Positions 44,569-53,923 of a DNA stretch of 64,000 nt are shown piece by piece (positions within the stretch are counted from its first letter, which is position 1; every line of letters starts with the position of its first letter). Under the pieces are notes generated by a model, which saw only the letters and a list, made by a program, of their open reading frames with translations, made no database searches and had not been told where the DNA came from. The translations under genes were made by a program, and so were the position numbers. The DNA comes from Fragilariopsis cylindrus CCMP1102 (Eukaryota > Bacillariophyta > Bacillariophyceae > Bacillariales > Bacillariaceae), in the NCBI GenBank assembly GCA_900095095.1, contig FMBT01000290.1, forward strand, positions 930,001-994,000. The letters run 5' to 3'.

Positions 44569-45240
44569 ATGAAGAAACGATTAGCTCAATTCCGTAAATT
44601 AAATAGAACACCCTCACATAAATGGAGTATGTTACGTAATATGATGAGTTCATTAATTGAACATGAAAGGATTGTCACCACCGAAGCAAAAGCAAAAGAA
44701 TTACGTCACTTAGCGGATCAAATGATCACATTAGCAAAGAAGGGCAATACTAATTATAATGCAATTATTATGAATACGAATAATAATACAGATAGTAAAA
44801 CTAAAAGACAAAAAACAGCTGGTGAATTATTACATTATCGTCGAATGGCCTCGAAAGTCATACGTGGTGATTGGAATATCACGAAATTATTTGAAGTATT
44901 AGGACCACGATATATATTACGTCAAGGTGGATACACTCGTGTCTTAAAATTAAGTAAACCACGAGCTGGTGATAATGCACCAATGGCGGTGATTGAATAT
45001 GTTGATCGTCCTGGTGAAATCCGTCCCGCACGACCACCCACTATTTTAAGTAGTGATGCTAGTGACGGTAATAATGTTAATGCTAAGAATGCTAATCTAC
45101 AAGGTGGTGGTGGTGTGGAAGATGCATTACGTAAAATGGGTATTCGTTCGGTGGATGAATTAGTTTCAGAGGAAGAAAAGAAACAAATTGAATCAGAACT
45201 AGCATTAGCAGCACAAGAAAAAACGGAAGAGAAGAAATAA
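44569..45240 (+). CDS. MRPL17: Ribosomal protein bL17, mitochondrial type
   Basis: 223 residues, ATG at 44569. Seen: KLNRTPSHKWSMLRNMMSSL then IEHERIVTTEAKAKELRHLAD, the N-terminal bL17 signature. After an Asn-rich insert (about 62-83) come KLFEVLGPRYILRQGGYTRV and APMAVIEYVDRP, the C-terminal signature. Known: bL17 lies at the polypeptide exit tunnel region of the large subunit of bacterial-type ribosomes. It is nuclear-encoded here and has no long plastid presequence, and it starts almost at the mature end as mitochondrial L17 proteins often do. Mitochondrial location is therefore favoured, but plastid cannot be excluded. A poorly conserved acidic extension follows about residue 160. It is convergent with the copper monooxygenase-like gene (302 bases apart). 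Confidence 0.92.
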   Translation: MKKRLAQFRKLNRTPSHKWSMLRNMMSSLIEHERIVTTEAKAKELRHLADQMITLAKKGNTNYNAIIMNTNNNTDSKTKRQKTAGELLHYRRMASKVIRGDWNITKLFEVLGPRYILRQGGYTRVLKLSKPRAGDNAPMAVIEYVDRPGEIRPARPPTILSSDASDGNNVNAKNANLQGGGGVEDALRKMGIRSVDELVSEEEKKQIESELALAAQEKTEEKK

Positions 45241-45542: not shown

Positions 45543-48443
45543 TTAAATGATAGATACAATAATTGCCATAACCATCGACAAAACTCCAATAGCACCACTA
45601 CTACTACTAGATGAATCTTCATCATCGACATCTAAAGGACCAGCATCTTGGATTGTTACTGTATCGCCTTGGATTGTTACTGTATCGTCTTCTTCGACTT
45701 CTTCGTTACTGCTTTTAGGACTACAGCACTTAGGTTGAAACCAGTTCACTCTTAAAAATTCTTTGATCTCACTTGTTACATCTATAGCTGTTGCTTTATT
45801 AGATAAATAGGACTCAGCATCAGAACATGTATAGGAAACGTAATCAGTTCCACCGCCCTCAACGATGCATGCATCTCTTGTAACATAAAGTGGTGCCTCA
45901 TTACTATCCTTTTCATCATATGTACCACCCTCACAAGTATACCCTGCTATAGAACTAGACATAAGTTCGTCGTTGACTTCTTTACCATAACAAATCAAGG
46001 AATTCTTGTTCTCGTGATTCTCTTCTTCTTCAGGACAATCGCGCGCTTCACCTGTGATAGTATAATCAAAAATCGATCCATATACAGGGTATGTACATGT
46101 ATCAGTTGTTTCGATGGGATGATCGTACCAAATCTTACGTGCATCTTCATCGGACTCTAACGTTCCTTGCCATACATCGGTGGTATGATTCTCATCGTCT
46201 GCAACACAATTGAAGGATCGTAAATTTAATTCTGTACTAAAACCGATGTCACCAATTTCATCTAACGATGGAGTTTTAAATGTCACAAAAACACCAATAA
46301 TACACATTTCATCATACGTTGATAGACCAAAGTAGGTATCTTCGTCGCGATTCTTTGAGCTATAGACACAGGATACTTGAATTTTATCACCTGCTTTCAC
46401 TTCCACGCCTCCCACCATCGTAATATCGTTGCCACCGTCCACGTCAACATCAATGACAAATTCTTTATCCATAGGAATCGTTTCTTGATTATCGAAGAAC
46501 CAAATTTCTCTACTTTTCAGGTCTTTCTCAGTCATCGATGGTGTACTACTGATATCGGCTTGTTTCTTCGCGACGGATACCTGTACATCTTCTTGATCTT
46601 GTGTATCTTCTTCTTCTTCTTCTTCTTCACGGAGCAACGTTGCATACATTTCAGTTCCTAGCAAATGTGCATGATAATTGACTGAAGACACTCGATAATT
46701 TAACGGATCTCTTGGGTTGACTTTACTCGTAGTATTAGTAGTAGTACCGTCAGTATCATCAGGCATATCACCACATAAGCCGCATGATACAGGACATAGC
46801 CGTTGCAAATAAATATCAATTCCATCTACAAAACAAAATGATTTGAGTGTTTCACATGACATGTTACTATCAACATAATCATCATCAGCATCATCATCAA
46901 AAGCGTCATCACCGAAATAAAAATCAGTGTAGTCATCACCACTTTCATCAAGACGACGACGACGACGAACAAACCCTAATTCCTTTGCAAGAACTTGTAC
47001 TTGTTGATTGGTTGCATCTCGGCATGAGCTATCAACAACACAAGTCCTTGTAACAAAGAATCGGTCGGTGGACGGAGGAATGAATAATTCACCTGGCCCA
47101 AACGGAATATTGATTAATTGTTTTCTCATGGAAGTGTACTCTCTAAGATCTGGTGTATAATAAATTTTGATACCGTCGGTTGCTATCTTGAAAGTGTCGG
47201 TAGTGGGGTCTTCATAATCAACATCGGTATAATGAACATTTAAGGTAATAGCTTTAATCCCCATGGATCGTCCAAATGCAATACCTGTATTCAATGTCAT
47301 CGTTTCATCAAATACACCAGATCCCGGTGCCTACATATCAACCATAAGAACGCAGAGAGAAAGAGAGAGAGAGAAAAAAGAACAGTCAGTGTTTTTTGCG
47401 CACTATATAAAGTTTCATGAATCAGCAAACATCAAACAACTTACCCATTGACCAAGTGGAATAGTACAATCGTAAGTGTAATCGTCCATCGATAATCCCT
47501 CTTCGGAAGGATCAATACGATCAGTACATCCCATCATCACAAAATGATGTAAATGTTCTGTTTGTGAAATAATTGCTTCTCCGTATACAGCATGTACCAT
47601 ATCAGGGAAATCTTCTGGAAGGTTGAAAAAAAAGTCAACATATGTAGTCGTTGCCACTGGAAGAGCATATGGTTTCATTATAAATTCTATCGAGGCACGT
47701 TCTTCTTCAGGATTATAATATTGATCAACATTGATAGTACTGTCTTCTGGATCGACTTCGACTTCGACGTCTTCTTGTGATGGATCGACTACGTCTTCGA
47801 CTACGTCTTCGACTACGTCTTCGACTACGTCTTCGACTACGTCTTCGACTACGTCTTCGACGTCAACGCCACACAACGAAGTCTTATCGTAAACAAACCC
47901 GCCGCTGCCGCTGCCGTCAGCTGATGATGGTGGTGGTGGTGGTGGCATATCATCGTCCATACCAGGATGTGATGGAATGAACCCATCAATTGAATCCAAA
48001 CTTGTACTGATATCACCCTGTTCCCACGTACAACATGGATCACCTAATTCTTGTCCATTCGTATAACCATCCCCATCACTATCCATTTCACATAATTCAC
48101 GTGTCCACACAAATCCTTGATTTCTAAAATCTTCACCAAAAGGATTTAATGAAAGAAGACGTGTCCCTTCCTCGTCCACCGATACATCCGTATCAAATTG
48201 CAGTCCACCACAATTCCAATGTCCTAATCCTAAACACAGACCAGAGGGTGTGCATCCACCCTCACCACCACCTGAATCTAAGATACTGGACGGACAAGGT
48301 ACTAATTCACCATTAGGAATTTTTGTACCAAACGATGGTAATGCGTCCACAATAATAATGTGAGGATGCGACAATAACAAGATCGTCGCCGCTGCCGCTG
48401 CTGCTGCTGTTGTTGCCGTTGCCATGATGGTAGGCGATGTCAT
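45543..48443 (-). CDS. Copper type II monooxygenase-like surface protein with Temptin-like and ShK-like modules
   Basis: Exon 1 is 48443-47445 and exon 2 is 47330-45543. The 114-base intron has TGG|GTAAGT and TAG|GCA ends, and the product is 928 residues. Seen in order: a signal peptide (about 12-35). A Cys-rich Temptin-like domain (LPSFGTKIPNG to QELGDPCCTW) with a Ca-loop-like DSDGDGYTNGQE. Six DVVE repeats at about 190-224. Then copper-site motifs: HLHHFVMMGC (about 294), NVHYTD (about 363) and NYHAHLLGTEM (about 550). Just before the last lies an ShK-like six-Cys module (CETLKSFC to CPVSCGLC, about 490-520). A C-terminal hydrophobic tail after Ser residues suggests a GPI anchor. Known: PHM/DBH-type enzymes hydroxylate substrates with two coppers bound by His/Met. 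The visible ligands fit, so activity is plausible; substrate unknown. Confidence 0.75.
47776..47866. repeat. In-frame 15-bp coding minisatellite (DVVE repeats)
   Basis: About six units of CTTCGACTACGT-type sequence (plus strand) encode Asp-Val-Val-Glu-Asp runs in the monooxygenase-like protein. Near-perfect copies imply recent slippage. It forms a strongly acidic linker between the Temptin-like and copper-binding parts. Confidence 0.85.
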
Positions 48444-51781: not shown

Positions 51782-53923
51782 ATGAATAAGTTAACTTTTA
51801 TTGTCGCCTTTGTGGGTGCCATCGTCAATAGCAGTATTTGCATCGTAGCTCAAGGAGCAAGGAATAGCAGTCGTGACTTGTCAGCGTCATCCTCGTTCAG
51901 TACTGACAAGATCAACAAATTCCAACGATCTGTTCAGCAGGAATCTGTTAGTAGTAGTAACATCACTCGTGCATCAGATAACAACGAAACATCAACTGAT
52001 GAAATTGAAACTGAAGAAGAACATGATGATCAGGATCAACATACTGATGAAGATCTTTACTTATCAGCCAATGATGGTTGTCATTGTGATGGAGATGTTG
52101 TTCATTGTTGGGGTGGTGATGCCGATGAATCAGCATATCATTGTCACGATGGTGTAATTGAAGGAGCATCCGCAGCGGACGCTCATGCTCACTCATCCGA
52201 TTGTCACTGTGACGGCAATGTTCCACATTGTTCAGACGCCGCCGATGAAGCATCATATGATTGTTCTAGTACAAGTCAATCTTCATACGAACCTGATTGT
52301 CATTGTGATGCGGATGTTGTACATTGTACGGGTGATATTGGTGATGATATTTGTTCTTGTACAACAGATGGTGTACTACAATGTGAGGGATTTGATATTA
52401 TTGTGGTTGGAGATGATATTCGTTATGTTGCACTTTATGGTAAACCATGGCTAGAAATTATTATCACATCATTAATTGTTAATTTATCAACATTGGCCGG
52501 TGTTTTTGGTACGTTAATATAATAATATGATTCGCATGCATGCTCGCATTCGCATGTCGTCTCCCTACTACTTCTGCACAAAAACAAACTGATTTATTCT
52601 AACTTCCTCGTCTTATTTGCTTCTTCTCTGTTATTGCTGGTCGTTATTTCATATAGTTGTTGCTGGTGCTTGGTTTATGAAAAGATTCTTTCCTAATTGG
52701 AAAGCAAGTAAAGCGACTGGTATTTTATGGATGGAAGTTTTGATTCCAATGTTTGCTTGTGTAAGTTAGTAATTGCAAATATAAAAGATTGACGAATCTG
52801 ACCGGCCCGACCGCCAACAACAACAAAATTAAAACAACGCAGACTCGACTCACTCAACTTATATACTTATCTTCCTTCCCTTCCTTTGTTTTCCTTTTGT
52901 TTTTTTTCGTAGGGTGCGTTATTAGCTACAACATTCTTTATATTGTTACCAGAATCATTCAATATCATTATGGCCGAGTTTACTGGTATTGATTTACATG
53001 AAGGACATGGTCATCGACGATTCTTAGAAGGTGACGAAGAAGATGATCTACCTGGTGAATCAGCCGGTACATGGAGATGGGGTGCATCTATTATGGGTGG
53101 ATTCTGGATTCCTGTTCTAATGCATTCCTGCTTTCCACATGATCATTCTGGTGCTGGTCGACATTCACACGATAATCATGTTCACGACGATACAAATGAT
53201 GAGGAAGAAGCAAATCAAAACTTAACTCTTGTTGACAATACGAAGACGTTAGAAAAACGAGAAAGTGATGGAGCTGTTACAGGTATTGAAGGCAGTCAAG
53301 AAATCATCAGGCAGGAAGAAGCCGTAGTGAAAGCTGTTGAAACCAATGGCGACGATGATGGTAGCACTAATAGCAGCAATAGTGATGCTCCTACCAATGA
53401 TATTGATAATGATAATGATAAATATGTTGTTTGTTGTTGTGGACTAGTCCGATTAAAGAATTTACCATTATTTGTATCAATGAATGTTGGTGAAGCATTA
53501 CATAATTTTACTGATGGGATATTTATTGGTACTGCATGGTTATTATGTGGAAATTCAATGGCAATATCAATTGCAATTGCAACTATATTACATGAATTGC
53601 CAAATCAACTTGCTGGTTATTTAGTCATGGTCAATCAATGTGGTATAAATCCGATTGTTGCACTTATATTAAATTTCTTATTTGGATTATCTATTTTGTT
53701 TGGTGGACTAATGGTGTTAGTATTTGATTTCAAGCAAGTTACTGTGGGCTGTATACTAGCAATCGGGGGTGGTACATTTATTCATGTTGCAATTGGTGAA
53801 TTACTACAAAATGCTGAACGTAATATGACGACGAGTGGTATCCAAATGATATATTGCTTTATTGCATTTTTAGCTGGTGCAATACCAATTGGATTAGTTT
53901 TAATTAATCATGAACATTGTTAA
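51782..53923 (+). CDS. ZIP family metal transporter with Cys/His-rich ectodomain, three exons
   Basis: Exons are 51782-52508, 52657-52760 and 52913-53923. All splice ends are GT-AG (for example GTAAGT and TTTCGTAG), and the product is 613 residues. Seen: a signal peptide (about 1-25), an acidic linker, then three Cys/His motifs near residues 98, 140 and 173 (CHCDGDVVHC, CHCDGNVPHC, CHCDADVVHC) before the first helix at about 222. The membrane part has GALLATTFFILLPESF, a His-rich loop (HDHSGAGRHSHDNHVHDD), NVGEALHNFTDGIFIGTAW and TILHELPNQLAGYLVM. Known: the HN-x-x-DG and HE-x-P-x-x helices form the binuclear metal site of ZIP (SLC39) importers of zinc and iron. Here the E of HELPxE is Gln (HELPNQ), which may alter selectivity. 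The Cys/His region probably binds metal outside the cell or in the lumen. Confidence 0.88.

Follow-up and report, generated by a model that had tools for sequence, protein, structure and literature searches.

The window considered in this report is the whole 64,000-nucleotide stretch at positions 930,001 to 994,000 of contig FMBT01000290.1 of the diatom Fragilariopsis cylindrus CCMP1102 (C91:930001-994000 in our numbering of the assembly, which was searched over its 67.9 Mb and 818 contigs), and our subject is a gene on its minus strand that encodes a putative copper monooxygenase. The coding region runs from 48443, the first base of the ATG, to 45543, the last base of the stop codon, and its spliced product has 928 residues without internal stop. 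An earlier note on this DNA, made from the letters alone, had placed the gene correctly at 45543..48443 and had left unmentioned an intron of 114 nucleotides, whose removal joins the long open frames 47415-48443 and 45543-47300. Read from its start, the protein comprises a signal-like segment, a Temptin module of snail-pheromone type, an acidic linker, the Cu2_monooxygen domain, an ShK-like module, the Cu2_monoox_C domain, a Cys-rich region and a hydrophobic tail; Temptin and the beginning of the N-terminal copper domain share one unbroken exon (residues 1-333). The features are located as follows.

47445..48443, minus strand: exon 1, residues 1-333 (spliced reading frame)
47331..47444, minus strand: intron of 114 nucleotides with GTAAGT...TATGTAG ends, phase 0, splitting Cu2_monooxygen at W333/A334 (spliced reading frame)
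45543..47330, minus strand: exon 2, residues 334-928 and stop (spliced reading frame)
48342..48443, minus strand: probable signal peptide, residues 1-34, with putative function and cleavage site at the VDA/LPSFG junction (hydropathy)
47964..48341, minus strand: Temptin module, residues 35-160, best Temptin_C stretch at residues 98-148 (Pfam)
48048..48083, minus strand: calcium-binding-type loop DSDGDGYTNGQE, residues 121-132 (sequence)
47785..47861, minus strand: acidic DVVE linker (tandem-repeat analysis)
47445..47687, minus strand: exon 1 part of Cu2_monooxygen, from residue 253 (Pfam)
47544..47549, minus strand: H299-H300, CuH ligands (aligned to the HH of DBH and PHM)
47217..47330, minus strand: exon 2 part of Cu2_monooxygen, to residue 371 (Pfam)
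47232..47234, minus strand: H366, third CuH ligand (aligned to the VHY histidine of DBH and PHM)
46695..47039, minus strand: enlarged loop in the C-terminal copper domain, residues 431-545, with an Arg5/acidic stretch and the ShK-like module (DBH alignment)
47022..47024, minus strand: C436, proposed partner of C519, the last cysteine of the ShK-like module (cysteine parity)
46773..46877, minus strand: ShK-like module, residues 485-519, with five of the six ShK cysteines (Pfam, paralog)
46665..46673, minus strand: H553-A-H555, CuM ligands (aligned to the HTH of DBH)
46305..46307, minus strand: M675, CuM ligand in DEMC (aligned to DEMC/EEMC of PHM and DBH)
45690..46205, minus strand: Cys-rich C-terminal region, residues 709-880, eight cysteines (sequence)
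45546..45617, minus strand: Ser-rich stretch and hydrophobic C-terminus, residues 905-928, resembling a glycosylphosphatidylinositol (GPI) signal (hydropathy)

Both halves of a copper type II monooxygenase were recovered when the spliced protein was searched against the Pfam profiles with curated cut-offs, matches with E up to 10 being inspected: Cu2_monooxygen at 1.6e-9 over residues 253-371 (38.5 bits against a cut-off of 30) and Cu2_monoox_C at 4.5e-11 in two stretches (42.9 bits against 23). With both models above their cut-offs the protein belongs to PF01082 and PF03712, and the PHM/DBH-type copper motifs that had been read from the letters stood up; of the outcomes that would have spoken against them, the lack of a significant copper match did not occur. 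All six copper ligands of dopamine beta-hydroxylase (DBH) and peptidylglycine alpha-hydroxylating monooxygenase (PHM) are present, namely H299, H300 and H366 for CuH and H553, H555 and M675 for CuM. The top solved relative is DBH (4zel), at 1.8e-8 with the single sequence and 1.1e-10 with a two-sequence profile; it shares both copper domains and the six ligands with the algal protein, which differs from it in that DOMON was not found, in a longer segment before H-x-H and in the residues after DEMC. Since the ligand set is complete, the enzyme is likely to be active as a monooxygenase.

Ahead of the copper domains, Temptin_C scores 83.7 bits (1.4e-23) against a cut-off of 27, and the 12-residue calcium loop is complete (D121-x-D123-x-D125-G-x5-E132), in agreement with the Temptin-like domain and calcium loop claimed from the letters. 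The protein can be placed in the Temptin family (PF24784), Temptin_C being above cut-off and the loop having the DSDGD form of the DSDxD motif, which is named for temptin in the part of PMC10075465 that we consulted. No DOMON match was obtained in the spliced protein at E up to 10, Temptin standing in its place, and the N-terminal DOMON that marks the DBH/MOXD family in the narrow sense is therefore missing. A Pfam search of the protein found no lyase domain, and its three remaining matches (TSP3_bac, TpcC and GDYXXLXY) are all below cut-off. The Cys-rich region at residues 709-880 had no match in Pfam or in the PDB; its matches in the genome are its own gene, the paralog described below (2.3e-41) and one at E 0.2. 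As for the six-unit DVVE linker noticed earlier, it corresponds to a perfect 12-bp tandem repeat of 6.4 copies with 100% matches. Because the array is perfect and is absent from the paralog, it suggests a recent slippage with expansion of the tandem repeat, and the DVVE run was rejected as a functional module on the same grounds.

Temptin_C occurs at two loci of the genome, with copper domains after both. The second locus is a paralog on contig C303 (156572-159766, minus strand), for which a four-exon model gives 905 residues in the same order, i.e. Temptin, Cu2_monooxygen, ShK-like unit, Cu2_monoox_C, Cys-rich region and hydrophobic tail. The identity of the pair is 53% (447 of 846 aligned residues), and the cysteines are aligned 28 for 28, none being private to either gene; the six copper ligands and the calcium loop are identical, the CPVSCGLC end and the five cysteines of the ShK-like unit are kept, and a hydrophobic N-terminus and terminal tail are found in both genes. 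One intron of the paralog sits 4 nucleotides further along the reading frame than the intron of the window gene, and another falls within the ShK-like unit. Judged from the two gene models, the domain plan has been kept across a diverged second gene. The ratio of nonsynonymous to synonymous substitution rates (dN/dS, Nei-Gojobori) is 0.27 overall, 0.25 for Temptin, 0.13 for Cu2_monooxygen, 0.215 for Cu2_monoox_C and 0.24 for the Cys-rich region, values of which only the direction is reliable because dS ranges from 0.85 to 2.2, near saturation. The possibility of a pseudogene was dropped, the frames being open, the ligands intact and dN/dS below 1 in both gene copies.

The ShK-like module is found in a loop that DBH does not have at this length. 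From the cysteine ahead of the loop to H-x-H, DBH has about 15 residues (chain positions 352 to 367) and the profile of the two algal proteins about 120 positions, which makes the loop ahead of H-x-H about 105 residues longer than its DBH counterpart; in the two other copper enzymes of the genome the Cys-to-His spacing is about 25 residues versus 123 here (C430 to H553). Since the spacing exceeds that of both, the comparison supports a position of the ShK-like unit inside the C-terminal copper domain, ahead of H-x-H, and not merely between domains. The earlier note had already set the unit inside the monooxygenase region, and this position is upheld by the DBH alignment and the paralog, while the assignment to ShK itself is borderline in the window protein. 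The Arg5 of the expanded loop is absent from the paralog. With regard to disulfides, the usual ShK pairs are C2-C4 and C3-C5, and the last cysteine is usually bonded with the first. We further assume that the PHM-type pairs apply here, as 430-708, 306-326 and 654-676. C436 and C519, both kept in the paralog, are then left over, and as the other segments have even numbers of cysteines we propose that these two would form a bond.

As predicted from its reading frame, the protein thus combines two copper domains that have all their ligands, a Temptin module with its calcium loop and an ShK-like unit nested in the second of these domains. The C-terminal tail is hydrophobic up to the final residue (mean hydropathy 2.23 over residues 910-928), in keeping with the anchor-like tail described previously, and because of this tail and the hydrophobic N-terminus the features suggest that the enzyme is secreted and located at the cell surface. 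On this basis we consider it probable (roughly 0.72) that the product is a relative of DBH and DBH-like proteins, namely a copper type II ascorbate-dependent monooxygenase that is secreted and probably held at the membrane or by a GPI anchor. The observation made in the earlier note is confirmed in this way, and its interpretation is partly supported.

Several points weigh against this reading. The H-x-H segment taken alone scores -1.1 bits against DBH, and for this reason its match rests on motif and order. An AlphaFold2 model computed from the single sequence, with the gene read through its intron, gave a mean predicted local distance difference test score (pLDDT) of 33.4 and a predicted template-modelling score (pTM) of 0.24, too low for the model to be used. 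Identity to the paralog is higher in Temptin (86/122) than in the copper domains (109/180 for Cu2_monooxygen and 82/149 for Cu2_monoox_C; 18/35 for the ShK-like unit), so that the degree of constraint does not by itself point to catalysis, and the ShK-like unit has a dN/dS of 0.45 over 35 codons, higher than the other segments. The Pfam ShK match on the whole protein (8.2e-4, residues 486-519) reaches 20.3 bits, below the cut-off of 20.9, and the six cysteines expected of ShK are reduced to five, the first being absent in both genes, which is why we term the unit ShK-like. A DBH cysteine near the position of C436 presumably pairs with a C-terminal cysteine, a pairing that competes with C436-C519 and is the chief objection to it. 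Finally, the probable signal peptide and the possible GPI anchor are both read from hydropathy only.

The alternative that survives best, though we regard it as unlikely, is that enzyme function has been lost and that the copper core now serves the Temptin and ShK-like binding modules as structural support. Such a view would fit the prominence of the binding modules, the insertion of about 105 residues near the CuM ligands and the fact that Temptin is the best-kept part by identity; against it, neither gene copy has lost any of the six ligands, and the copper domains have the lowest dN/dS of the segments measured, with dS near saturation. A little less likely again is the notion that the ShK-like unit is unrelated to ShK and represents a chance Cys-rich loop, for which its five cysteines instead of six and, in the window protein, its score below the threshold of Pfam could be invoked. 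The paralog, however, lies above the cut-off (21.6 versus 20.9 bits) with the five cysteines and the CPVSCGLC end kept, and the window unit rises to 24.4 bits when scored alone and to 25.1 bits in the six-frame genome search.

A further alternative is a PHM that amidates secreted peptides, in the manner of the Chlamydomonas PAM. The fold family and the ligands are common to both enzymes, PHM (1opm, 1yjk) shares the DEMC motif, and the chain 1yjk was matched in the PDB at 0.0051 with the single sequence. The two-sequence profile, on the contrary, gives 43.3 bits for DBH and 13.9 bits for PHM, which is no longer significant and falls below a TetR protein. The position of PHM Y318 corresponds by alignment to G679 (Ser in the paralog), and that of R240, two residues before the first His of HxH, to N551, the latter being placed by motif and not by alignment to PHM; R240 and Y318 are, we assume, the residues by which PHM binds the carboxylate of its peptide substrate. 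The substrate Arg and Tyr of PHM/PAM are accordingly not kept, and because these positions are changed and no lyase is present in the protein, the C-terminal glycine of a peptide appears to be an unlikely substrate. Even though an active PAM is reported from a green alga in the portion of PMC6313938 available to us, we judge peptide amidation improbable for the diatom gene.

We therefore return to a DBH-related, extracellular monooxygenase and consider how it might work. In PHM and DBH, both coppers are reduced by ascorbate and O2 is bound at CuM; the substrate is hydroxylated at a C-H bond, and CuH gives an electron. By analogy, ascorbate would reduce both coppers of the algal enzyme, O2 would be activated at CuM, CuH would deliver the second electron, and the substrate would be hydroxylated at one C-H bond outside the cell. 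Temptin, with its Ca2+, and the ShK-like unit would be non-catalytic binding or scaffold parts that either retain the enzyme in the cell coat or bring a partner close to its CuM side, while C436 of the host domain would replace the lost first ShK cysteine and so lock the module to the enzyme. It is tempting to go one step further and to speculate, although we hold it to be rather doubtful, that the Temptin-copper-monooxygenase plan, far from having been invented in Lophotrochozoa, is an old eukaryotic extracellular enzyme (or has moved between marine lineages), that the ShK-like module in its catalytic domain, tied by C436-C519, forms a lid or docking arm beside CuM, and that module insertion recurrently regulates or aims secreted oxygenases, possibly in the building of the cell coat or silica wall.

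The combination of Temptin with a copper monooxygenase is not new. A Temptin/mono-oxygenase hybrid has been described in Lophotrochozoa (the Aplysia DBH-like protein AAY42041, Lottia and Pomatoceros), and, as far as the parts of that 2009 article seen by us go (PMC2762978), the combination was not found beyond this group, the N-terminal part alone resembling a Trichoplax gene. Animal and algal proteins have in common an N-terminal Temptin that replaces the DOMON of DBH-like proteins and is followed by PF01082 and PF03712. They are set apart, by the description given in those parts, in that ShK is unmentioned there whereas the algal gene has an ShK-like unit, a Cys-rich extension and a hydrophobic tail, and they differ in their hosts, an animal on one side and, on the other, an alga with silicon transporters (27 matches in the assembly, the best at 1.1e-226) and light-harvesting proteins (104 matches). 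It is hardly credible that our gene model joins neighbouring Temptin and copper-enzyme genes or that the contig is chimeric, because, while fusions read from genome sequence alone may be artefacts, no intron separates Temptin from the first part of the N-terminal copper domain, the same order recurs at a locus on another contig and the same fusion is published in animals. The claim of an unusual module order has consequently to be divided, Temptin followed by copper domains being already published in the part of PMC2762978 that we saw and the ShK-like insertion being the portion for which no counterpart was found in what we could view of the open-licence literature.

Within the same literature of PubMed Central (PMC), as far as it was accessible in part, we found no description of an algal copper monooxygenase with Temptin or ShK. 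A diatom transcriptome table counts 2 genes under GO:0004500 'dopamine beta-monooxygenase activity' (PMC6688387) and a table entry for IPR000323 exists for a marine heterotrophic flagellate (PMC7852580), in both cases with no architecture given in the sections consulted. The ShK-like insertion and the algal host are thus apparently new, the Temptin-copper monooxygenase architecture itself being already known, and present databases may hold further non-animal examples. Our searches for relatives outside the host genome covered bacteria, archaea, viruses and plasmids. Scans of bacterial and archaeal contigs returned 64 pattern stretches with the two-gene alignment and 77 with a 49-residue Temptin piece, and those of viral contigs 40 with the two-gene alignment and 36 with the C-terminal copper domains, but none of these stretches could be confirmed to be related; a tblastn search of plasmids with the protein was negative at E 0.01. 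The occurrence of a fusion of the same order in a silicon-transporting photosynthetic alga means that its restriction to Lophotrochozoa needs revision, and what was once presented as a marker of the mollusc and annelid clade is present in an alga as well. Temptin is also cited in PMC10075465, in the text available to us, for a role in mollusc biomineralization, which makes a role of the algal protein in the cell coat a testable question.

The ShK-like unit has company in this genome. The ShK profile gave 27 genome matches at E up to 0.1, with a sub-cut-off match in E. coli among 14 control genomes; 18 of the 27 were read, in 14 regions, and four open frames were scanned with Pfam. At one locus (L027, C563:57500-62500) a six-Cys ShK-like unit, at 18.3 bits and thus below the cut-off, stands between the halves of a 2-oxoglutarate (2OG)-Fe(II) oxygenase domain: the first half of 2OG-FeII_Oxy_3 scores 17.4 bits alone (profile 12-56, below cut-off), the second 31.5 (profile 55-97) and the whole protein 43.7. 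Because this locus also splits an oxygenase by an ShK-like unit, nesting seems to occur in two enzyme types of the genome. As an example of a cysteine module embedded in an oxygenase domain beside catalytic ligands, the copper monooxygenase could serve as a test case, L027 being an apparent second instance. At another locus (L025, C88:475000-478500) an ShK-like module lies directly upstream of a glutathione peroxidase domain; it lacks the last cysteine, and its first would precede the start of the open frame. The unit at L020 (C340:225000-228500) is without first and last cysteines, and no enzyme domain above its cut-off was found at L020 or L032. The ShK enzyme fusions (PF01549) of the host genome, beside glutathione peroxidase and within the 2OG oxygenase, resemble the window gene in joining such a module to an enzyme and differ from it in that here the unit is embedded in a copper monooxygenase domain and is without the first cysteine. 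A fusion of SELENOM with ShKT is known from the alga Emiliania, according to the part of PMC7539508 that we saw. Some other ShK open frames end in NDEL (L023 on C748 and L024 on C459) or SDEL (L030 on C438), endings that suggest retention of these proteins in the endoplasmic reticulum.

Copper domains occur at four loci in total in the genome. PF01082 gives four matches at E up to 0.001, of which, scored as single exons, only that of the window passes the cut-off, and PF03712 gives four matches at the same loci, all above cut-off. Two of these loci (L014, C273:6000-12000, and L015, C384:220500-226500) carry, all in one orientation, an acyltransferase-3-like membrane sequence, an unassigned segment and, downstream of both, a Cu2 type II monooxygenase. 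The acyltransferase-3-like sequences score 20.9 and 12.2 bits, both below the cut-off of 31, and neither Temptin_C nor ShK gave a genome-search match at these loci. A fusion of acyltransferase-3 and copper monooxygenase is possible at these related loci.

Regarding the surroundings of the gene, no tRNA and no Rfam match were found in the window, and 10 of its 29 open frames were scanned against Pfam. The neighbour at 44569-45240 on the plus strand encodes ribosomal protein L17 and stands tail to tail with the copper monooxygenase gene; a ZIP metal transporter is encoded nearby at 52943-53923, also on the plus strand. In the assembly at large, no RuBisCO large subunit was found, and for one light-harvesting protein the sole PDB matches below 1e-30 were four chains of 9vfj. 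Several contig pairs, e.g. C268/C581, C331/C90 and C201/C651, agree in spacing and have equal or almost equal scores in family searches, which suggests that they are uncollapsed haplotypes.

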